Part shown: one piece after another, positions 16,590-29,794 of the stretch
Position numbering within the stretch: position 1 is the stretch's first letter
How the letters are laid out: each line of letters opens with the position of its first letter
NCBI RefSeq assembly: GCF_009711445.1
Contig: NZ_SMMC01000214.1
Span: 1-38,245 of the forward strand
DNA length: 38,245 nt
Origin: Curvivirga aplysinae
Lineage (GTDB): Bacteria; Pseudomonadota; Alphaproteobacteria; UBA8366; Aestuariispiraceae
Direction of reading: 5' to 3'
Made by a program: the position numbers and the translations under genes
The notes under the pieces: generated by a model
Seen by the model: only the letters and a program-made list of their open reading frames with translations
The model's database searches: none
What the model was told of the DNA's origin: nothing

Positions 16590-16639
16590 ACATAAGACCA
16601 CATCTAAATAGAAGTTTGGATGAGAAGAGGATTGTTAAC

Positions 16640-17089
16640 ATGAATAAATTAGTATTGAAGTCTGCCTTGGCAGGGGTATTGGGGTTAGGGATGGTAACTT
16701 CAATCTCTTTGACCCATGCAATGAGTTTTAACGGTGAAGCGCCATCATTGGATGATATTCAAAAACTAGTTGATGTCGGCGAGTATGATAAAGCGATCAT
16801 GGATTTGAAAGCCGTATTGGATATGGACTTGAAAAACGCAGACGGCTGGAATTTACTTGGTTATACCTATCGTAAATCAGGCCAGTTGGATTTGGCTTGG
16901 GATGCTTATGAGCGGGCATTGACTCTTGATCCGGATCATTTAGGAGCGACGGAATATATCGGTGAATTATATGTAACCCAAGGAAATTTGGAACAGGCCG
17001 ATGTACAATTACAAAAGTTAATGGTGCTTTGTCCTACAGGATGTGAAGCCTATGACACACTGAAAGCTTCTATTGCTGCTGCTCAGTAA
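16640..17089 (+). CDS. Periplasmic TPR protein
   Basis: I start it at the ATG at 16640, which has an AGAGG site upstream, rather than at a TTG 24 bases earlier. The resulting 149-residue protein opens with a Sec signal peptide ending near THA-M (about residue 27). About three TPR units follow; the clearest is the stretch DGWNLLGYTYRKSGQLDLAW followed by AYERALTLDPDHLGATEYIG. Two cysteines near the C-terminus (LCPTGC) could form a disulphide or bind a ligand. It lies 50 bases after the TPR/glycosyltransferase-like gene and probably shares its transcript. Its last 20 bases overlap the end of the convergent cyclase gene. Confidence 0.75.
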   Translation: MNKLVLKSALAGVLGLGMVTSISLTHAMSFNGEAPSLDDIQKLVDVGEYDKAIMDLKAVLDMDLKNADGWNLLGYTYRKSGQLDLAWDAYERALTLDPDHLGATEYIGELYVTQGNLEQADVQLQKLMVLCPTGCEAYDTLKASIAAAQ

Positions 17090-18779
17090 GCTTAGGTTTT
17101 TGTTTGATTGCCTGTAGTAGGGTATCAAAATCCTGTTTGCGCCTTAAGACATGTATACAAAGCCGCCCTTTGCGTCCGCGAATGGCGGTTTCTTGTATTG
17201 GAATATTTAATTCTTCAATTTCGGCAACCGTCAGAACATCTTGCGATATGACAAGATCTGCTTCCAAATCTTTGGTCAGGCCTTCTAGACGGCTAGCCGT
17301 ATTTACGGTATCCCCGATAGCCGTGAGTTGCGTTGCATTGCCATAACCCATATCGCCAATAATTGCATGACCACTATGCAAGCCAATACCAATTTGAAGC
17401 TCATGTTCTAGATCGCCTTCGAGGCTCTTGTTTAAGGCATGGATACCATCAACCATATCATTTGCAGCTTTCATAGCGCTGCGGGCGCATTGTCTTGATT
17501 GGCCATTTACACCGAAAAGAGCCATCACTCCGTCTCCGATAAATTTATCAAGATGTCCGCCATTTTTTTCAACGGCAGTACCCATCATAGCAAAGAAACG
17601 GTTAAGAACGAAAACGACATCATATGGCAATTTACTTTCTGATAATTTGGTAAAGCCACGAAGATCCGCAAATAGCACTGTGATTTCTTGCTCTTGACCT
17701 TGATGGAGGCTGTTTCGTTCATGCAGGTTTTCGTTATCAGTATCGGCAGGAAGCAGGCATGAAATTGAATATTCACCGGCAAAAGGTTTGCACTGACAAG
17801 CCAATCGAATGTCTTTTTCGGCATCAATCTTGTTTAGAATTTTTTGCTCAGCAACAGATGGCGGAGGAAGATTCTCGATACCTTTATTGATTCTTACACG
17901 GCATGTAGAGCAACGCCCGCGTCCACCGCATACGCTTGCATGAGGTTGTAAAAAACGATGGCTAATTTCTAAAAGAGAAACACCAGGTGCTGCCTTCACT
18001 TCACGTCCAGAATCATACGTAATTTTTATAGAGCCATTGCGTGCTTCCCAGACTGGACGTAATTGTCTTAAAACAAGTGTTAGGACAAGTAAAATGGCAT
18101 AGCCGATTAAGAAACCATATTCCCATTTGGCGAGATAAGCGTAATCAGAGCCTGTTGGTTGTTTGGTTAGGGTCAGGATTTCGCGTAACCAATTAGAATC
18201 TTCAAACAAGACCAGAACCTGTTTACTTGCATCCCATATCCCAAGCAAAGCAAGCGTGGGCCATAACAAGGCGATAGCAAGTACATAGCCGCGTAGTTTG
18301 GGCCAACTCTTTTTTAATCGAAGCCAAAAATAGATTCCTAAACAACCATGTGTCCAGGCGATTACCAGCACGGCTAATTGACGCACACCAGTGGGAATGT
18401 CGCCTTTCCAATAAATCAATAACATCCAAGCATAATTTGGATTGACGTCATAAAATTGTTCAATAATTAGGGTGCCAATGTAATGTAGGATTAAGAGTGG
18501 CGGAATGGAGAGACCAAAAATTAGTTGTAGCCATTCATTGGCCCGCATATTTGAAAAACGGCGCCGTTGATAGAGAGCATAAAACGCTAATCCGCCATGA
18601 ATCAGCATGGTAAGTGATAATACCAGTCGGCCTAACTCATTGCTCCAAATCAATTGAATCCAATAACGGGCTTCGTCCATAGCCTTTAAGGACCATAGAC
18701 CAATCATATGATTGCCTAAATGCATGAAAACATAGGTGAATAAAATCCATCCCGTGTAAAGTCGGATAGTTCTGGTCAT
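17070..18779 (-). CDS. Membrane class III cyclase with SdhC-like anchor and [2Fe-2S] domain
   Basis: A 569-residue multidomain protein. Residues about 1-235 form roughly six transmembrane helices with His20, His24, His61, His99 and His144 in or near helices, resembling the cytochrome b (SdhC-like) diheme anchor of redox-regulated cyclase CyaC of Sinorhizobium meliloti. Residues about 250-345 are a plant/adrenodoxin-type ferredoxin domain with C284-x5-C290-x2-C293 and C328. Residues about 365-535 are a class III cyclase: metal Asp372 and Asp416, substrate-specifying Lys412 and Thr486, and Asn493/Arg497, a class IIIb-like, apparently active set. It probably makes cAMP in response to quinone or electron-carrier redox state. 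Its 3' end overlaps the convergent TPR gene by 20 bases. Confidence 0.85.
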   Translation of the reverse strand: MTRTIRLYTGWILFTYVFMHLGNHMIGLWSLKAMDEARYWIQLIWSNELGRLVLSLTMLIHGGLAFYALYQRRRFSNMRANEWLQLIFGLSIPPLLILHYIGTLIIEQFYDVNPNYAWMLLIYWKGDIPTGVRQLAVLVIAWTHGCLGIYFWLRLKKSWPKLRGYVLAIALLWPTLALLGIWDASKQVLVLFEDSNWLREILTLTKQPTGSDYAYLAKWEYGFLIGYAILLVLTLVLRQLRPVWEARNGSIKITYDSGREVKAAPGVSLLEISHRFLQPHASVCGGRGRCSTCRVRINKGIENLPPPSVAEQKILNKIDAEKDIRLACQCKPFAGEYSISCLLPADTDNENLHERNSLHQGQEQEITVLFADLRGFTKLSESKLPYDVVFVLNRFFAMMGTAVEKNGGHLDKFIGDGVMALFGVNGQSRQCARSAMKAANDMVDGIHALNKSLEGDLEHELQIGIGLHSGHAIIGDMGYGNATQLTAIGDTVNTASRLEGLTKDLEADLVISQDVLTVAEIEELNIPIQETAIRGRKGRLCIHVLRRKQDFDTLLQAIKQKPKLTEQQQ

Positions 18780-19017
18780 AAAATGGTATGCCTTAATCCT
18801 GCCCCAAATAAGTAATATGATAGAAACTAGCCAATATTTTGATAGGGGGCGAGTATGAATTTAGGAATTTCTCTTCATTTTTATGTTATCGCTTGAAAAA
18901 AAGGGGCTGGCTTCATAAAGTCTTTCCTAGTTTTCTGTCATTATTGGTCTGTTCAATTTTAATAAGATTAATTGTGATGATCTTGAAAAATCAAAATAAT
19001 TTGTAAGGGAAGTAAAG

Positions 19018-19971
19018 ATGATCGAAATCGACCATCTGACAAAAGATTTTGGAACTTTCCGTGCTGTTGATAGCTTAAGCTTTTCTGTTGAGAAAGGTGA
19101 GGTTCTTGGCTTTTTAGGGCCTAACGGTGCGGGAAAATCTACCAGTATGAAAATGATCACTGGATATCTGTCACCGACCAGTGGAACCGCGCGCATCCTT
19201 GGCTGCGATGTACGCAAAGATCCTATTTCAGTTAAAAATGCCATTGGCTATTTGCCTGAGGGTGCGCCGGCTTGGCCGGATATGACGCCAGTTAGTTTTT
19301 TGAAATTTATTGCGCAAATTCGGAAAATATCTGGTGTTGAGACGGATAAAGCTATTGCAGAGGTAGTAGATAAAACAAATCTAGGAAATGTTTTGCACCA
19401 ACCAATTCAAACATTGTCCAAAGGTTTTAAACGTCGTGTTGGATTAGCTCAGGCTTTATTACATGATCCTGAGGTTTTGATCATGGATGAACCTACCGAT
19501 GGACTTGATCCTAATCAGAAAAAAGATGTTCGGGATTTGATTCAATCCATGTCGGCAGATAAAGCAATTATCGTATCAACACATATTTTGGAAGAGGTTG
19601 AGGTTATTTGTAGCCGTGCAATGATTATCGATACGGGACGAATTGTTGCTGATGGCCGACCAGAAGAATTAGAGGCGCAATCAGAACGTCACAATGCAGT
19701 GCGTTTGACTGTTGCCCCTGAACAACAGGAAAATGCACAGAAATTGTTGGAAGGGTCTGAAGTCGTTCAATCTGTGGAGTTGATTGGTGAAACCGGATTG
19801 AGAGCCTTGTCTGTTGATCGAAAACCAATTTTGGACCCTGTGCTTGCTTGCTTGGGAAAAGCCAACCTTAAAACGCTTGAAGTACAGGTTGAACGTGGAC
19901 GCCTAGATGATGTTTTTCGTAATTTGACCAAATCAGATATTCATCATTTTGATAACAGGGAGGCGCAGTAA
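19018..19971 (+). CDS. ABC ATPase, GldA-like
   Basis: A 317-residue ABC ATP-binding subunit, the motor of the three-gene exporter-type system that follows. Walker A is GPNGAGKS (34-41), the signature is LSKGFKRRVGLAQA, Walker B/catalytic Glu is LIMDEPTDGLDP, and the H-loop His is in VSTHILEEVE, so all catalytic residues are present. The C-terminal about 85 residues are the extension seen in GldA/NatA-type ATPases. An AAGGGAAG site precedes the ATG. The TAA stop overlaps the next gene's ATG by one base, indicating translational coupling. Gliding motility is not implied: homologous systems occur in many non-gliding Proteobacteria. Confidence 0.88.
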   Translation: MIEIDHLTKDFGTFRAVDSLSFSVEKGEVLGFLGPNGAGKSTSMKMITGYLSPTSGTARILGCDVRKDPISVKNAIGYLPEGAPAWPDMTPVSFLKFIAQIRKISGVETDKAIAEVVDKTNLGNVLHQPIQTLSKGFKRRVGLAQALLHDPEVLIMDEPTDGLDPNQKKDVRDLIQSMSADKAIIVSTHILEEVEVICSRAMIIDTGRIVADGRPEELEAQSERHNAVRLTVAPEQQENAQKLLEGSEVVQSVELIGETGLRALSVDRKPILDPVLACLGKANLKTLEVQVERGRLDDVFRNLTKSDIHHFDNREAQ

Positions 19972-20705
19972 TGTCTGCGATTTTGACTGTTTTTCGGCGT
20001 GAGATGGGTGCTTATTTTGCAACCCCTTTGGCCTATATATTTATCATCGTATTTTTGGTGCTAGCAGGCGTTTTGACTTTCTTCATGGGTGCATTCCTTG
20101 AAAGGGATCAAGCTGACCTAATTGCCTTTTTTCAATTTCATCCTTGGTTATATGTGGTTTTAATACCAGCAATTGCGATGCGTCTTTGGGCGGAAGAAGT
20201 TCAAAATGGTACAATGGAATTGTTGCTTACTTTGCCTATCACGCCGTTTCAAGCTGTGTTTGGGAAGTTTCTAGCAGCATGGGTTTTTACTGGCATCGCT
20301 TTAACATTAACTTTCCCGATATGGCTAACTGTGAATTATCTTGGTGATCCTGATAATGGAACAATTCTAGCAGGATATATTGGCAGCTGGTTTATGGCAG
20401 GTGGGTATCTTGCGATTGGATCGTTTGTATCGGCACTGACTAGAAATCAAGTGATTGCTTTTGTTCTTGGTGTCGCATTTTGCTTTATTGTGACCATGGC
20501 TGGTTCTCCGGTAATTTTAGGATTATTGACTGGATGGGTTGGTGATAATGCAATTAGCTTTATTGCGTCACTCAGTTTCATCACACATTTTAATGATTTG
20601 ATGAAGGGGGTGATTGATTTGCGCGATGTAATTTATTTTACAAGCTTGATTATTGCTTTCCTATTCGCAAATACAGTCGCTGTCGAACGGGCCCGTGGGG
20701 CTTAA
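19971..20705 (+). CDS. ABC permease, GldF-like
   Basis: A 244-residue inner-membrane permease with about six helices. The opening FRREMGAYFATPLAYIFI and the following AIAMRLWAEEVQNGTMELLL are typical of the ABC-2 permease GldF group; the Glu-x-x-x-Gly-Thr motif couples to the ATPase. It starts within the stop codon of the ATPase gene and ends right at the GldG-like gene, so all three form one operon. The substrate is unknown. The family's role in gliding bacteria is linked to motility or secretion, but in Proteobacteria it is unassigned. Confidence 0.88.
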   Translation: MSAILTVFRREMGAYFATPLAYIFIIVFLVLAGVLTFFMGAFLERDQADLIAFFQFHPWLYVVLIPAIAMRLWAEEVQNGTMELLLTLPITPFQAVFGKFLAAWVFTGIALTLTFPIWLTVNYLGDPDNGTILAGYIGSWFMAGGYLAIGSFVSALTRNQVIAFVLGVAFCFIVTMAGSPVILGLLTGWVGDNAISFIASLSFITHFNDLMKGVIDLRDVIYFTSLIIAFLFANTVAVERARGA

Positions 20706-20723
20706 GTGAAGGGAGAAATGGTG

Positions 20724-22688
20724 ATGTTATGGATTCAACGTAAACCTTTACTTGCAGCGTTTTTGGCGATTGTTGCATTTGTTGTGATTAACTTAGCAAG
20801 TGAAAAACTATCAAATGCTCGATTAGATCTTACGGATGAGAAATTATTTACCCTTTCCAAGGGCAGTGAAGTTGTGCTCACGGAAATGCAAGATCGTCCT
20901 ATACAGGTGACTTTCTATTATTCCAGTTCATTGGGTAAGGAAATCCCGACATATGGTGCGTTTGCTAGCCGTGTGCGTGATATGCTGAAGGAATTTGAAG
21001 CAGTTAGTAATGGAGGCATGGTTTTACGTGAAATAGACCCGAAACCGTTTTCTGCTGAAGAAGATGAAGCGGTTGAGAACGGAATGGAAGGGCTGCCCTT
21101 AGAAGCTGGTGGTGATAAAGTTTATTTCGGTATGTCTGTGGTTTATGCAGATGAAGCAGGTGAAGTCGCGGGTAGTCCAGAAGGTGAAGGGCCTATTGTT
21201 TCTGCAATTCCGTTCTTTCAAATTGAACGCGAGACCTTCCTTGAATATGACATGATGAAAGCAATTTATACCATTGGTAATCCAGATTTACCTGTGGTTG
21301 GTGTGATCACTGAAACAACCATGTTTGGTGATCCATATGCGCAAATGCAAGGTCAACAAATGGTACCTTGGGCGGCAATTGGCCAGGCACAAGATTTCTT
21401 TCAAATTGAACAAATATCTCGACCGGAAGATTTTTTGGATATTCAGCCTGATATGCTGCTGGTCGCTCATCCGGGTAATCTGCCTGACGATATGCAATAT
21501 GCCATTGATCAATTTATGATGCGCGGTGGTAAGGCCGTCTTTATGATGGACCCTTGGTTTGAAAGTAAGGGGAATGGTTATGCACCGGATCGATCTGATG
21601 GATCAGCCGAAAAATTATTCACGAAATGGGGCATTGAGATCTCAGAAACACAGGTGGTCGGGGACAAAAATATTGCGCGTCAGGTGAATGGTGGCACAGA
21701 TGGTCAGGTATTTGCGGCTCCTTATATCGTTTGGTTGCAACCAGAATTGAATAATCTAAACCAAAATGATCCAACTTTGGCTGATGTTGATAATCTTCTG
21801 TTACCATCTGCAGGGGCGATTATGCAATCAGATGACTCGCCATTAGTAATGGAGCCTTTAATTACCACAACATCTGATGCCAAATTGGTTCCTATTTCAG
21901 AGCTGCGTGAACGTGGTGTGATGAAATTATTGGAAGATTATCAAGCAGGTGAAGCTGCACCCTATGTTGTTGCGGCACGTTTTCATGGAAAAGTGGATAC
22001 CGCATTCCCCGAAGGTGAGCCACCATTAACCGAAGATCAATTGGCAGAGATTGAAGAAGAGAGAAAAGCATTAGAAGAAGCAGGTGAACCAATACCAGAA
22101 AGGGTACAACGCTATCTTGAACATAAGGCAAGTTCTGATGGTGATATCAATGTAATCCTGATTGCAGACGCCGACTTTATGGCGGACCGTTTTTGGGTGC
22201 GTGTGCAGGATTTCTTTGGTCAACAAGTGATGACCCCTTTTGCGGATAATGGCGCCTTTATGTTGGGTATGCTTGAATCTTTGAATGGCTCAGGTGAATT
22301 GATGAGTTTGCGAAGCCGCGGTATTTCAGCTCGCCCATTCACTGTAATTAGTGACATCCAGCGTAATGCGGAGGAAGAATTCCGTGCACAGGAACAAATG
22401 CTTTCTGCTCGTTTGGTTGAGATTGAACAGCAATTAGCTGAATTGCAAGGGGGCGGAGACGCCAATCTTGTTGGTCAAGCTAAAGAAGAGACCGAGCAAG
22501 CGATTGAAGCTTTTACACAGGATATGTTGAATATTCGTCAAGAGCTTCGATCTGTGAATTTGGCGTTGCGTGAAGATATCGAAGCTTTAGAGGCAAATGT
22601 GAAATTTGTGAATATTGCGTTGGTGCCGATTATAATTGTTATCGTAGCGATTATGACGGGTATTATTCGTCGACGTCGATATCGCTAA
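20724..22688 (+). CDS. GldG-like auxiliary ABC-system protein
   Basis: About 654 residues. I start it at the ATG at 20724, eight bases after an AAGGGAG site; a GTG at 20706 and an ATG at 20718 are alternatives. It has an N-terminal helix (about 8-27), a large periplasmic GldG/ABC-transporter-auxiliary region (about 30-560) with PVVGVITETTMFGDPYAQM and GGKAVFMMDPW, a coiled-coil-like Gln/Glu-rich stretch (about 555-620), and a C-terminal helix followed by basic residues (GIIRRRRYR). This is the normal GldG architecture, with both ends in the membrane. The DUF4340 protein that often accompanies such operons is not present downstream. An intrinsic terminator follows. Confidence 0.85.
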   Translation: MLWIQRKPLLAAFLAIVAFVVINLASEKLSNARLDLTDEKLFTLSKGSEVVLTEMQDRPIQVTFYYSSSLGKEIPTYGAFASRVRDMLKEFEAVSNGGMVLREIDPKPFSAEEDEAVENGMEGLPLEAGGDKVYFGMSVVYADEAGEVAGSPEGEGPIVSAIPFFQIERETFLEYDMMKAIYTIGNPDLPVVGVITETTMFGDPYAQMQGQQMVPWAAIGQAQDFFQIEQISRPEDFLDIQPDMLLVAHPGNLPDDMQYAIDQFMMRGGKAVFMMDPWFESKGNGYAPDRSDGSAEKLFTKWGIEISETQVVGDKNIARQVNGGTDGQVFAAPYIVWLQPELNNLNQNDPTLADVDNLLLPSAGAIMQSDDSPLVMEPLITTTSDAKLVPISELRERGVMKLLEDYQAGEAAPYVVAARFHGKVDTAFPEGEPPLTEDQLAEIEEERKALEEAGEPIPERVQRYLEHKASSDGDINVILIADADFMADRFWVRVQDFFGQQVMTPFADNGAFMLGMLESLNGSGELMSLRSRGISARPFTVISDIQRNAEEEFRAQEQMLSARLVEIEQQLAELQGGGDANLVGQAKEETEQAIEAFTQDMLNIRQELRSVNLALREDIEALEANVKFVNIALVPIIIVIVAIMTGIIRRRRYR

Positions 22689-22714: not shown

Positions 22715-22749
22715 GCCCGCCTAATGAATTTTTAGGCGGGCTTTTTTTA
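22715..22749 (+). terminator. Intrinsic terminator after the GldAFG-like operon
   Basis: GCCCGCCTAA (22715-22724) pairs perfectly with TTAGGCGGGC (22732-22741) over a 7-nt loop, followed by a seven-T run. The T-run borders the convergent cyclase stop codon; on the minus strand there is no T-tail, so it is one-directional. Confidence 0.93.
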
Positions 22750-24546
22750 TTTGGAGACTTCAGGAATTGTCTCACTCATCGTATAAAGGGAAACTGGTTG
22801 TTCTTTACCACGTATGTCAGCTTCGCCTAGTTTTTTGTAATTGAAATCAGGAGCCAAGGCTTTAGTCGTTTCTGAAATCAAGATATGACTGCCGAACTGT
22901 TTATTCATATTTTCGAGACGCGCGGCTGTATTTACAGCATCCCCGTGAACCGTGTAATTCATGCGGCTTTCCGCCCCGACATTGCCGGCAACCATTGTGC
23001 CTGTATTGATACCAATGCGGCATCTTAAACTATGGCCAAGATAACGTTTGTTATTAACAATATTCAACATGGCGTTACCCGCTTGTATCGCGTGAGCCGC
23101 ATGGTCAGGGTCTTCAATTGGTACATTAAAGACCGCAAGGATCGCATCACCTTGGAATTGTGTAATAATGCCACCATGAAACTCGATCACTTCAACCATA
23201 TCAGTAAAGAAGTTGTTGAGTAGTTCTACAATAGTTTGTGGTTCTAGTTTTTCGGACAGACTGGTAAAGCCTTCAAGATCACAAAATAGAACGGTCCCCT
23301 CTACATTTTGTGGTGTCAGAGTTCCTTGGGACTTTAACATGGCTTCTGCGACGCGTTCCGGGACCATTTTACCAAATAAGCCACGTATTTTTTCACGCTC
23401 TTGAAGACCTTGTACCATGCCGTTAAATGCTTTGGCGGCTTGGTCATATTCTAGGATACTACTATCTGGTAATTGTAGTGGCTCATTAAGTTTATTTTCG
23501 CCGATACGTAAAGATGCATCTGCCAATCGAGTTATGGGACGTTGCAAACGTTGTGACATAATCAATAGAATTATAATTGCAACAACGACGGTAATGCAGG
23601 CAATAATAGCAGATCGGATGAGGCGATCCATCTCAGTGCTGGAGTCATTCTCGCTCACATGGATACCAATAATGATAGGTTTATCCATGAGATTAGGTAA
23701 TTCTCGATACAGATAAAAATGTTCGTCACCCTCAATCCAATTTACAGAGGCCTGAATATCAGTGTTGCCAATCTCATCCCATTGGGCGTCTACACTCGAA
23801 CTAAAATACCCTAACATCGGGTCATTCACCTGATCCATTGTGGGTAAGGTTTGGTTCTCGGTAGATTTAAAAACTCCTAGTGCGAGATTTGGATGCGCTA
23901 ACACATATTTATAATCATAAATCATAAAGGGTGTTGCGCCTTCCCAGCTGTCAGCGGCTAGAAGTAACTCAGAAAGACTTTCTATGCTGACACCCTGAGC
24001 AAACATGACACGTTCGTTATTTCCAATGCCTAGGATGCTGCGGAGATTCACAAGAGTTCGTTGCAACTCCGGATGCCAAAATGGGCGATCCCAAATGCTT
24101 CCAAAACCGCTATTTAGTTGTTTTTGAACACGTGAAATTTCATGATAGCTTTGCGTGTAATTTTCGATCCGTAATATAGGAAAGTTTTTGGTCATCGAAT
24201 ATACGGAACCTTTTTGGTCGATGATCGCCATACCCGCAATATCGGCTGTGGCAGCCATACTTCCTACAAGGAATTTTTCTAATCCATCGGTATCGTCAAG
24301 GGTAATATGGCCAGTTGCTAATGCTTCACCAACCCAGCTGGCTTGATTTTCATATTTCTCTAAATCGTTGAGAATAATTTGTTCTGCATTATCAACTGCG
24401 GATTCTGCTGCAGAGGCTAAGAGAGAATAGGTATTTTTCGTGGCTGTTGCGAAACCAAGTAAAATAGTAATGGCTAGCGCACTGATAAGTAAGCCGCCAA
24501 AGCCAAATACAAGAACAGAGCGAATGGAAATTTGTATTTTTCGCAT
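22747..24546 (-). CDS. Cache/HAMP class III nucleotide cyclase
   Basis: I start it at the ATG at 24546 (599 residues), 27 bases inside a possible TTG start. One helix (about 8-28) leads to a large periplasmic sensor, probably a Cache-type domain (about 30-310), then a second helix, a HAMP linker, and a class III catalytic domain. Using the longer ORF numbering, metal Asp432 and Asp476 are present, as are Asn548 and Arg552, but the substrate-selecting Lys is Gln472 (TQFQGDA) and its partner is Thr541. This pattern differs from both standard adenylate and guanylate cyclases. It probably responds to an extracellular small molecule. Product (cAMP or cGMP) cannot be decided here. Confidence 0.83.
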   Translation of the reverse strand: MRKIQISIRSVLVFGFGGLLISALAITILLGFATATKNTYSLLASAAESAVDNAEQIILNDLEKYENQASWVGEALATGHITLDDTDGLEKFLVGSMAATADIAGMAIIDQKGSVYSMTKNFPILRIENYTQSYHEISRVQKQLNSGFGSIWDRPFWHPELQRTLVNLRSILGIGNNERVMFAQGVSIESLSELLLAADSWEGATPFMIYDYKYVLAHPNLALGVFKSTENQTLPTMDQVNDPMLGYFSSSVDAQWDEIGNTDIQASVNWIEGDEHFYLYRELPNLMDKPIIIGIHVSENDSSTEMDRLIRSAIIACITVVVAIIILLIMSQRLQRPITRLADASLRIGENKLNEPLQLPDSSILEYDQAAKAFNGMVQGLQEREKIRGLFGKMVPERVAEAMLKSQGTLTPQNVEGTVLFCDLEGFTSLSEKLEPQTIVELLNNFFTDMVEVIEFHGGIITQFQGDAILAVFNVPIEDPDHAAHAIQAGNAMLNIVNNKRYLGHSLRCRIGINTGTMVAGNVGAESRMNYTVHGDAVNTAARLENMNKQFGSHILISETTKALAPDFNYKKLGEADIRGKEQPVSLYTMSETIPEVSK

Positions 24547-24776
24547 ATTCAAATGAATTCCCGCCATGTGCAATCTAATAGAATAGAAGCACGCCTTTTG
24601 ATCCTAAAGCTAATGTAGGTAGCATATAGAATTTTACAAAGGGGAAAAGGAATTAAACGTTTTGAACAGTCGAAATTTTAGTCTCTTCACAGCTATGTGA
24701 GCAGTCTTGATTGGGTTTTGTGAGATCAAGTTTTTATAGTGTAGATGGATGTGATTAGTATAAACGAGGAAAATCC

Positions 24777-26123: not shown

Positions 26124-28730
26124 ATGGGAACTCAAAAGTCGGATAAAAAAGACCTCATATCAAGAATGCCAGCTTATTTATTTGTGGCATTTATTGGATT
26201 CTATTTGAGTATCGGTGTCTTTCTGCTGTCTCAATATCATTCCAGTAAAAATGAATATGGTTTTTTGGAAGATAGCGGTAATTATTCAGAGATAGAAAGA
26301 ATAAAAACAGAGCTATTTGCTATCCATCAGGGGCTTGGTTTTGATGGCTTGTCATATCTTCATCATAAGGCAATTAGGACTGGTGATATAGATGTAGCCT
26401 TGCAGGTGAAAGATCAAATAAATATCCTTCAAAACCAATTGGCCAAGATATCGGATTTGCTTGATAAAGATGGAAAAGACATCCTTATTCGATTGAGTAT
26501 AGGATTACATGCTTATGATAAGCAAATCTCTGATTTTATAGCGGTATTAAATTTGGGTGACGACTATATTACTTTTGTTCAAAGTAATCCGGTGGATCGT
26601 TCTTTGATTGCTGAACCTTTAGCTGAGTTAGGTAAAGTTATATTTGATAAATATCAGCAAGAAGAATCCAAAAAAGTTTCATTTCTCCAAATTGCGGAAG
26701 TTTATGTTTATCTCGCCTATTTCAGTGTTTTATTTGTTGTCGGTGTTGCTTTTTTGATCTGGCGACAGCGGCAAACTATGGATCGATTACAGTTGAGATC
26801 GCAACTTCAACTTAATAATCGTTTAGCCGAATATAAAACACTCATTACAAATGCAAGCGATGCGATCATATATATTGATCAGGAAGGGGTGGTTAAATAC
26901 GTGAATCCTGCAGTAACTTCAATGTTTGGATACGAGGCGGATGAACTTTTAGGGAATAATGTCAACCTGTTATTGCCAATGTCCGAACGTAAGGATCATG
27001 ACGCTTATCTCAAGAATGCCCGACTGCATAAAAAAGATGTAATTAATTTTAATAGGGGTGCTTTGCAGGGATTACATAAAAATGGCTCAACATTTATGAT
27101 CGACTTAAACGTCTCAAGAATTGAAATAGAAGGTGCCCCACATTATGCGGGTATCTTAAGGGATGTTTCCGAGCGTGAACGAACGCAAAATGAATTGATA
27201 ACTTTATATCAGGAAGCGCCAATTGCCTATGCCACAATTCAACTCTCAGATGGCAGAATAACTCGACTAAATAAAACATTTGAAAGTCTTTTGGGATATA
27301 AGGCAAATGATCTGCTTGATAGTAATATTATGGATTATCAAGCAGATGTAGAAGGTCGGATCGAAGCCGCGCAGATATGGGCAAATTTCTTTAAAGGCAT
27401 AGAAATGCATGATCAAGAAGTTTGTTTGCGTAAGGCCTCGGGAGAATTAATCTGGGTCTCTATTTCTGCAGTTATTGTAATTGATGATGAAGTCGGCCTT
27501 CGAGAAGGTCGGGTTACTATGCTGGATATTTCAGATCGTAAAGAGGCCATTGAAAAACTTGAAGATGCGATTCATCAAGCTCAGAATGCGAATGATGCGA
27601 AAACTCGGTTTCTTTCCAATATGAGTCATGAATTACGCACGCCTCTTAATTCCATTTTGGGACATGCACAATTACTTCTTAACAGTAAAAGACATCAATT
27701 AGCAGAAAGGCAGCAGCGGCAAGTCTCTACTATTTTAAGCAGCGGAAATCATCTTTTGTCCTTGATTGATGAGGTTTTGGATATGGCGCGTGTAGAAAGC
27801 GATAAAGACGTTCTTAGTGAAGAGGTCGTTAATATGCGTGAGGTTCTACAAGCTGTTTGGGAACAATCCTTAATATTACCTACCCAATTAGATAAAGATG
27901 TGCGTTTTGACCTTGAATTGGGCAACAAAGATTTTTTTGTTTATGCTGATATGAGGCGTTTAAAACAGGTTTTTCTAAATCTTTTATCGAATGCTGTGAA
28001 ATATAACAAAGATGGTGGACAGGTAAAACTGAGCTGTGAGTTTCCTGAAGTAGACTTATGTCGGGTGACTGTTTCGGATACGGGTTACGGCATTGCTGAA
28101 GATAAACTAAGTGACGTTTTTTCACCTTTTAAGCGGTTAGGTGCAGAGCTCACACAAGTTGAAGGTACCGGGATCGGTTTATATCTCACTAAAATGCTGG
28201 TTGAAAATATGGGGGGTGGGATCGGTTTGAATTCTGTTGAAGGAGAAGGAAGTAAGTTTTGGGTAGAATTCCCCTTGGTTGCGGAAGAAGAAAAAGAAGA
28301 CAGCGAGCCTGTTTTCAGTGGTCGCAGTCTAGAAACCGTGGATATGGAAAATAAGGTCATTCTTTATATTGAGGATAATCTGCAAAATATCTCGTTTATG
28401 GAAGCCTTTGTTGAAGAGTTAGATAATACGGCATTGGTGGCTGCGATGGATGGTGAAGCTGGATTGTCCATGGCGAAAATGTTGAAACCGGATGCAATAT
28501 TACTGGATATTAATTTGCCTGATATTGATGGTATTACCGTGATGCAGAAAATGCGTACTTTACCTGAAATCAGAGATATCCCAGTTGCAGTAGTAACATC
28601 TAATATTGATCCAGATATACAGGATGTTATGATGAATTTAGGTTGTAAGGCATATATAAGAAAGCCCGTCGATTTGGCTTTGATCGTGGATTTTTTGGAA
28701 CAAAGTTTTGATGGAGATAAAAAGTCATGA
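26124..28730 (+). CDS. Hybrid sensor histidine kinase with two PAS domains
   Basis: An 868-residue inner-membrane sensor. Two helices (about 11-31 and 190-212) enclose a periplasmic helical sensor region. Two PAS domains follow (about 230-345 and 350-470, the first with NASDAIIYIDQEGVVKYVNP and GYEADELLGNNVNLLLP). Next come a HisKA domain with phospho-acceptor His502 in NMSHELRTPLN, a GHKL ATPase domain (about 600-725) with DTGYGIAEDK and GTGIGLYLTKMLVENMGG, and a receiver domain with Asp795 in LLDINLPDIDG. All signalling residues are present. It overlaps the HD-GYP regulator gene by 4 bases (ATGA), implying coupled translation and a shared pathway. Confidence 0.92.
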   Translation: MGTQKSDKKDLISRMPAYLFVAFIGFYLSIGVFLLSQYHSSKNEYGFLEDSGNYSEIERIKTELFAIHQGLGFDGLSYLHHKAIRTGDIDVALQVKDQINILQNQLAKISDLLDKDGKDILIRLSIGLHAYDKQISDFIAVLNLGDDYITFVQSNPVDRSLIAEPLAELGKVIFDKYQQEESKKVSFLQIAEVYVYLAYFSVLFVVGVAFLIWRQRQTMDRLQLRSQLQLNNRLAEYKTLITNASDAIIYIDQEGVVKYVNPAVTSMFGYEADELLGNNVNLLLPMSERKDHDAYLKNARLHKKDVINFNRGALQGLHKNGSTFMIDLNVSRIEIEGAPHYAGILRDVSERERTQNELITLYQEAPIAYATIQLSDGRITRLNKTFESLLGYKANDLLDSNIMDYQADVEGRIEAAQIWANFFKGIEMHDQEVCLRKASGELIWVSISAVIVIDDEVGLREGRVTMLDISDRKEAIEKLEDAIHQAQNANDAKTRFLSNMSHELRTPLNSILGHAQLLLNSKRHQLAERQQRQVSTILSSGNHLLSLIDEVLDMARVESDKDVLSEEVVNMREVLQAVWEQSLILPTQLDKDVRFDLELGNKDFFVYADMRRLKQVFLNLLSNAVKYNKDGGQVKLSCEFPEVDLCRVTVSDTGYGIAEDKLSDVFSPFKRLGAELTQVEGTGIGLYLTKMLVENMGGGIGLNSVEGEGSKFWVEFPLVAEEEKEDSEPVFSGRSLETVDMENKVILYIEDNLQNISFMEAFVEELDNTALVAAMDGEAGLSMAKMLKPDAILLDINLPDIDGITVMQKMRTLPEIRDIPVAVVTSNIDPDIQDVMMNLGCKAYIRKPVDLALIVDFLEQSFDGDKKS

Positions 28731-29794
28731 GCCAGTTGGACATAATTCTTCAGCAATCGAAAATTTTGATAGTTGATGACAAATTAGAAAATGTTCAGCT
28801 GTTAGAACACATGTTGGACGAAGAATATTTTGATAATGTTTACTCAACGACAGACCCCACTAAAGTTGTCTCGCTTCACAGAGAATATGATTTTGATATT
28901 ATCTTATTAGATATCCGGATGCCTGAGATGTCCGGTTTTGATGTGATGGATGCGTTAAAACCGGAAATCAAAGAAGATGATTATTTACCTGTTTTGGTTT
29001 TAACTGCTGAAACCGATGAAATAACACGTCAAAAAGCCTTGGAAAAAGGTGCAAGAGATTTTCTGGTAAAACCTTTTAAACATTGGGAAGTTATGCAGCG
29101 TATTCGCAATATGCTGGAAACTCGATATTACTTCAAACAACAAAGAATGAAAGTGGATGAGTTAGAAGGAATTGTTGAAAGGCGGACACAAGAAATTCGT
29201 GCGTCTCAACTTTCAGTGGTCCGTATCCTTGGTAAGGCGTCAGAATATCGGGATAATGAGACAGGCATGCATATTATCCGGATGAGTAAGATTTGCGAGA
29301 TGATTGCACGAGAGATGGGAGAAAGCGAACAATATTGCGAATTAATACTGAATGCGGCCCCCATGCATGATGTAGGGAAAATCGGTATCCCAGATAGCAT
29401 TCTATTAAAACCAGGGCGTCTTGATGCAGAACAGCGTGTGATTATGGACACCCATGCGGAAATTGGTGGCGAAATCTTGAATGGATATGATACGCCATTG
29501 ATGAATATGGCCTGTGAAATCGCGGTATGCCATCATGAGAAATGGGATGGATCAGGCTATCCCAAGAAATTATCTGGTAAGGACATACCGATTTCTGCAC
29601 GAATTGCGGCCGTGGCAGATGTTTATGATGCTTTGTTATCTGTGCGCCCCTATAAGAAGCCATGGAGCTTGGAAGATGCTGTTGAAATGATCAAATCCAG
29701 TGCAGGCAATCATTTTGATCCTGATGTGGTAGATGCGTTTATGCGTATTTTGCCCGAAATTAATGAAATGCGTGGTGAATTCCCCGATGATTAA
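28727..29794 (+). CDS. HD-GYP response regulator (RpfG-like c-di-GMP phosphodiesterase)
   Basis: A 355-residue regulator. The receiver domain (about 8-125) carries phospho-acceptor Asp62 in LLDIRMPEMSGFD and conserved Lys in FLVKPFK. After a short coiled linker comes the HD-GYP domain (about 150-350): HD at 214-215 in MHDVGKIGIPD, the HH pair at 269-270 in HHEKWDGSGYP, and the complete GYP at 277-279. All metal ligands appear present, so it should hydrolyse cyclic-di-GMP when phosphorylated by the upstream kinase. The gene starts inside the kinase gene and ends just before an intrinsic terminator. Confidence 0.93.
   Translation: MSQLDIILQQSKILIVDDKLENVQLLEHMLDEEYFDNVYSTTDPTKVVSLHREYDFDIILLDIRMPEMSGFDVMDALKPEIKEDDYLPVLVLTAETDEITRQKALEKGARDFLVKPFKHWEVMQRIRNMLETRYYFKQQRMKVDELEGIVERRTQEIRASQLSVVRILGKASEYRDNETGMHIIRMSKICEMIAREMGESEQYCELILNAAPMHDVGKIGIPDSILLKPGRLDAEQRVIMDTHAEIGGEILNGYDTPLMNMACEIAVCHHEKWDGSGYPKKLSGKDIPISARIAAVADVYDALLSVRPYKKPWSLEDAVEMIKSSAGNHFDPDVVDAFMRILPEINEMRGEFPDD

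Follow-up and report, generated by a model that had tools for sequence, protein, structure and literature searches.

CyaC of Sinorhizobium meliloti has been described as a quinone-responsive class III cyclase with six membrane helices and two b hemes (PMC10463352); oxidation reportedly activates it. The legend to Figure 6 of that paper assigns it a distal and a proximal heme B as well as a [2Fe-2S] cluster, and its catalytic residues are K410, T484, N491, and R495 (PMC10463352). Here, we compare with CyaC and with other known redox proteins the product of a gene found in 38,245 nucleotides of DNA from Curvivirga aplysinae (the whole stretch that was analyzed, referred to as the window). Judged by its sequence, the window protein is an ordinary relative of CyaC, of an already known kind. 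By analogy with CyaC, it is very probably a redox-controlled class III adenylate cyclase of the same type, in which the signal would run from quinone through the hemes and the [2Fe-2S] cluster to the cyclase dimer.

Domain Architecture of the Window Protein

The gene and the three parts of its product lie at the following positions of the window:

17070..18779, minus strand: CyaC-type cyclase gene (ATG start, 569 amino acids; open reading frame list and homologues)
18045..18779, minus strand: six-helix membrane anchor, residues 1-245 (invariant H20, H61, H99, and H144)
17784..18014, minus strand: Fer2 [2Fe-2S] domain, residues 256-332 (Pfam; C284, C290, C293, and C328)
17163..17696, minus strand: class III cyclase catalytic domain, residues 362-539 (Pfam and residue check)

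Both soluble domains exceed the Pfam gathering cut-offs (Fer2, residues 256-332, E 3.4e-8; Guanylate_cyc, residues 362-539, E 9.7e-20), and hydropathy averaged over the family places six membrane helices at approximately residues 7-31, 48-71, 83-107, 131-155, 160-185, and 215-245, bearing out the claim of an earlier note on this DNA that a six-helix membrane domain, a ferredoxin domain, and a cyclase are joined in one chain. The loops of the anchor follow a positive-inside pattern with charges fitting an N-in/C-in arrangement, which would place the Fer2 and cyclase domains in the cytoplasm. A residue check found H20, H24, H61, H99, H144, C284, C290, C293, and C328 all where the earlier note had put them. 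The catalytic set that it had described as complete is indeed present, with D372 and D416 for the metals, K412 and T486 for adenine, and N493 and R497 for the transition state, at a K-T-N-R spacing of 74/81/85. The cluster motif is CX5CX2CX34C, in what is by profile a Fer2 fold, and the domain is closest (by profiles and PDB relatives) to NqrF and putidaredoxin-like ferredoxins. A single-sequence AlphaFold model of the protein reached a pLDDT of 39.5, too low for use.

Conserved Ligands and the Predicted Heme Map

Ligand conservation was counted in an alignment of 102 homologues with identities down to 29%, in which H20, H61, H99, and H144 are invariant (102/102), as are C284, C290, C293, and C328 (again 102/102). 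H280 is kept in 100 of these proteins, and the Fer2 domain carries a basic CGGRGRC loop. H24 is kept in 92 and replaced by Leu or Ile in the other 10, and since it is not invariant, it is unlikely to be a heme ligand. Ligand conservation of this kind, together with intact domains and an intact catalytic set, is far beyond chance. The alignment thus provides a testable ligand map, in which H20/H99 are predicted as the likely distal and H61/H144 as the likely proximal heme pair, the four cysteines would be the cluster ligands, and H24 would be dispensable.

Against the PDB, the anchor profile gave weak matches to two chains only, both of them diheme anchors: SdhC of M. smegmatis Sdh2 (E 0.14) and subunit C of the D. 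gigas fumarate reductase (E 3.2). H20 and H61 fall on His C47/C87 in the M. smegmatis protein and on His C38/C79 in the D. gigas QFR, which are the published distal/proximal heme ligands of these proteins (PMC7447783, PMC6175931). When the anchor was compared by HHalign with a set of 11 SdhC b558 proteins, all four anchor histidines paired with the four invariant ligand histidines of SdhC (E 2e-4, probability 45%). With the histidine columns masked, the alignment shifts to another register, and the pairing therefore reflects a shared ligand pattern rather than independent proof of homology. The NCBIfam model sdhC_b558 (TIGR02046) matches 30 of 81 family members, with a best E of 1.7e-5; the score against this model is 15.7 bits, where the curated cut-off is 96. 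Proteins above this cut-off were found in the phylum of locus L001, and none were found in the window's own phylum. The SdhC-like diheme anchor proposed in the earlier note is thus weak by profile score and supported by the ligand-to-ligand alignment.

Relationship to CyaC and Spread of the Family

K412/T486/N493/R497 of the window protein have a spacing identical to that of K410/T484/N491/R495 in CyaC, with an offset of two, which implies that CyaC is of nearly the same length ahead of the cyclase. The sequence comparison itself was made with a protein from Sinorhizobium sp. C101, whose gene lies on a replicon of 3.5 Mb. Read from a TTG start, this protein has its catalytic residues at exactly 410, 484, 491, and 495, and because of this match to the published numbering, we take it to be the CyaC of strain C101. 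Its architecture is the same, including a Fer2 domain with the Cys motif, no His or Cys ligand is lost, and the 540 aligned columns, which cover the whole chain, show 40% identity with the window protein, in support of the likeness to CyaC that the earlier note had pointed out. A TetR-type gene adjoins the cyclase gene in this strain.

The anchor-Fer2-cyclase type is common in the window's class. Full-length or near-full-length homologues occur in approximately 33 of 59 related genomes, 10 of which (the window's own among them) have two copies, and a query of the first 345 residues finds matches in 80 of 289 genomes of the class (71 of 235 among those of good quality). Fer2 and Guanylate_cyc were both detected in 50 of 50 aligned members. 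Replicons matching most of the query include those of Rhizobium, Sinorhizobium, Azospirillum, Phyllobacterium, Cupriavidus, Burkholderia, and Methylocystis, and the matching records, where annotated, are named adenylate/guanylate cyclase domain-containing protein. A search of genome contigs for related loci gave only one match, a distant cyclase; viral contigs gave 20 related loci, nearly all aligned to the cyclase part only, the best of which (L159) spans residues 227-546 of the window protein.

The homologue search also located the second copy in the window's genome, which we list as follows:

G000:C57:16128-17750 (window's genome); L052:6111-7757, minus strand: second CyaC-type cyclase

This full-length copy (C57:16128-17750) has the same architecture and 38% identity to the window protein, with Gln in place of Lys at the adenine-specifying position and Leu in place of H280. 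It falls in a group of related copies, most of which carry Gln at this position, a residue found there in 21 of the 102 proteins overall, and such Gln copies may differ in substrate choice or activity.

Anchor-Fer2 Genes Overlapping MscS-Type Channel Genes

More unusual than the window cyclase are three cyclase-less proteins consisting of a six-helix anchor and a Fer2 domain, encoded at the following loci:

L102:3767-7095, minus strand: cyclase-less anchor-Fer2 gene and MscS-type gene (Pfam MS_channel match)
L103:5920-9008, plus strand: cyclase-less anchor-Fer2 gene and MscS-type gene (Pfam MS_channel match)
L147:2-2466, plus strand: cyclase-less anchor-Fer2 gene and MscS-type gene (sequence likeness only; both genes incomplete, as the stretch ends within them)

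At each of the three, the anchor-Fer2 gene is followed, with a 4-base overlap, by the gene for an MscS-type mechanosensitive channel, and in L102 and L103 the counterparts of H20/H61/H99/H144 and the four cysteines are kept. These pairs come from three genomes of two families and are rare in the class sample. It is possible, though we are inclined to doubt it, that the anchor and ferredoxin half works as a transferable redox sensor in the membrane, whose output would be either a cyclase, as in the CyaC type, or an MscS-type channel supplied by the overlapping gene. If so, the redox state of quinone would gate a mechanosensitive channel.

Genomic Neighborhood of the Cyclase Gene

The immediate neighbors of the cyclase gene in the window are the following:

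19018..22688, plus strand: divergent three-gene ABC operon (GldA-like ATPase, permease, and GldG-like auxiliary protein; domain searches)
16616..17089, plus strand: small TPR protein gene, convergent and overlapping the 3' end of the cyclase gene by 20 bases

The cyclase gene thus stands alone on its strand, with the ABC operon diverging from it at 19018 and the small TPR gene converging on it. The GldAFG-like operon is kept as its divergent neighbor in 6 of 16 related loci examined and the small TPR gene in three related loci, with the ABC operon and both TPR genes kept in L181. No cycR-like or TetR gene adjoins the cyclase gene in the window neighborhood; the nearest CycR-like TetR protein of the genome is encoded on another contig (C141, 37%). 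Reading the intergenic stretch 18780-19017 by eye revealed no obvious CRP-type palindrome.

We also note two further signaling loci in the window. Close by, at 22747-24573 (minus strand), lies another class III cyclase gene of a different kind, which encodes HAMP and Guanylate_cyc domains behind a long N-terminal region resembling a sensor domain, and the span 26124-29794 (plus strand) encodes a hybrid PAS histidine kinase with a receiver domain, overlapping an HD-domain response regulator.

Proposed Mechanism and Alternative Readings

In the mechanism that we propose, the six-helix anchor would hold two b hemes in the pattern of diheme succinate dehydrogenases and fumarate reductases, with the distal heme held by H20 and H99, between helices I and III, and the proximal one by H61 and H144, between helices II and IV. 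The redox state of the hemes would be set by the quinone pool, along a path from the distal to the proximal heme, and the cytoplasmic [2Fe-2S] domain, adjoining the proximal heme, would relay or share the electron. A change in the linker would then alter the packing of the cyclase dimer, and with it the output of cAMP, which would be read by CRP-family proteins; the genome has nine cNMP-binding domain matches, of which one lies elsewhere on the window's contig. Redox control is here carried over from CyaC, as is the sign of the response. Electron transfer by the cluster, with an effect on the cAMP level, is plausible, and the role of the cluster in CyaC signaling can be studied in many homologues.

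The [2Fe-2S] cluster could instead be a separate input, with soluble cytoplasmic reductants or oxidants acting on the cluster and quinones on the hemes, such that two redox signals would be integrated. The invariant cysteines, the almost invariant H280, and the basic loop of the Fer2 domain are in keeping with this arrangement, as is the fact that its closest relatives, NqrF and the putidaredoxin-like ferredoxins, exchange electrons. We nevertheless consider it unlikely, as no gene for a partner reductase or ferredoxin adjoins the cyclase gene in the window, and SDH-like layouts place the iron-sulfur centers in line with the proximal heme, which makes one chain the simpler reading. Far less probable is that the cluster and hemes are structural or a relic, and that the cyclase is controlled by some other signal such as membrane lipids: a response to lipids is reported for the hexahelical cyclase Rv1625c (PMC12505454), but the four histidines and four cysteines are perfectly conserved across proteins of as little as 29% identity, and heme-dependent redox control has been published for CyaC. 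Finally, we give almost no credence to the view that the inserted iron-sulfur domain makes this protein a distinct signaling device rather than a CyaC, which had in its favor nothing beyond a description of CyaC as diheme-anchored, with the cluster unmentioned, and which falls because CyaC itself has a [2Fe-2S] cluster according to the figure legend in PMC10463352, the C101 protein has a Fer2 domain, and chain length is nearly equal and domain order the same.

What the earlier note put forward on the domains, on an SdhC-like diheme anchor, and on the resemblance to CyaC is thus supported, and the distinctness it drew from the iron-sulfur domain is not. This domain is native to CyaC, in a family that is widely distributed, which removes the claim of novelty.

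Comparison with Known Systems

The ferredoxin domain shares its CX5CX2CX34C motif and, by profile, its Fer2 fold with the NqrF/putidaredoxin-type domains, but, in contrast to NqrF, it is not joined to a flavin reductase domain. With SdhC/FrdC of the b558-type succinate dehydrogenases and fumarate reductases, the anchor has in common the same four histidines on helices I-IV, in the order distal-proximal-distal-proximal, whereas the window protein has six helices, is fused to Fer2 and cyclase domains, and shows a similarity far below the family cut-off. The closest correspondence is with CyaC (SMc01818) of S. meliloti. The redox response of CyaC is published and that of the window protein is predicted, and CyaC has cycR (TetR) as an adjacent gene, in place of which the window gene has the divergent GldAFG-like ABC operon. 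In the protein itself, CyaC likewise combines a six-helix diheme anchor, a [2Fe-2S] domain, and a class III cyclase, with the same spacing of the K/T and N/R pairs.
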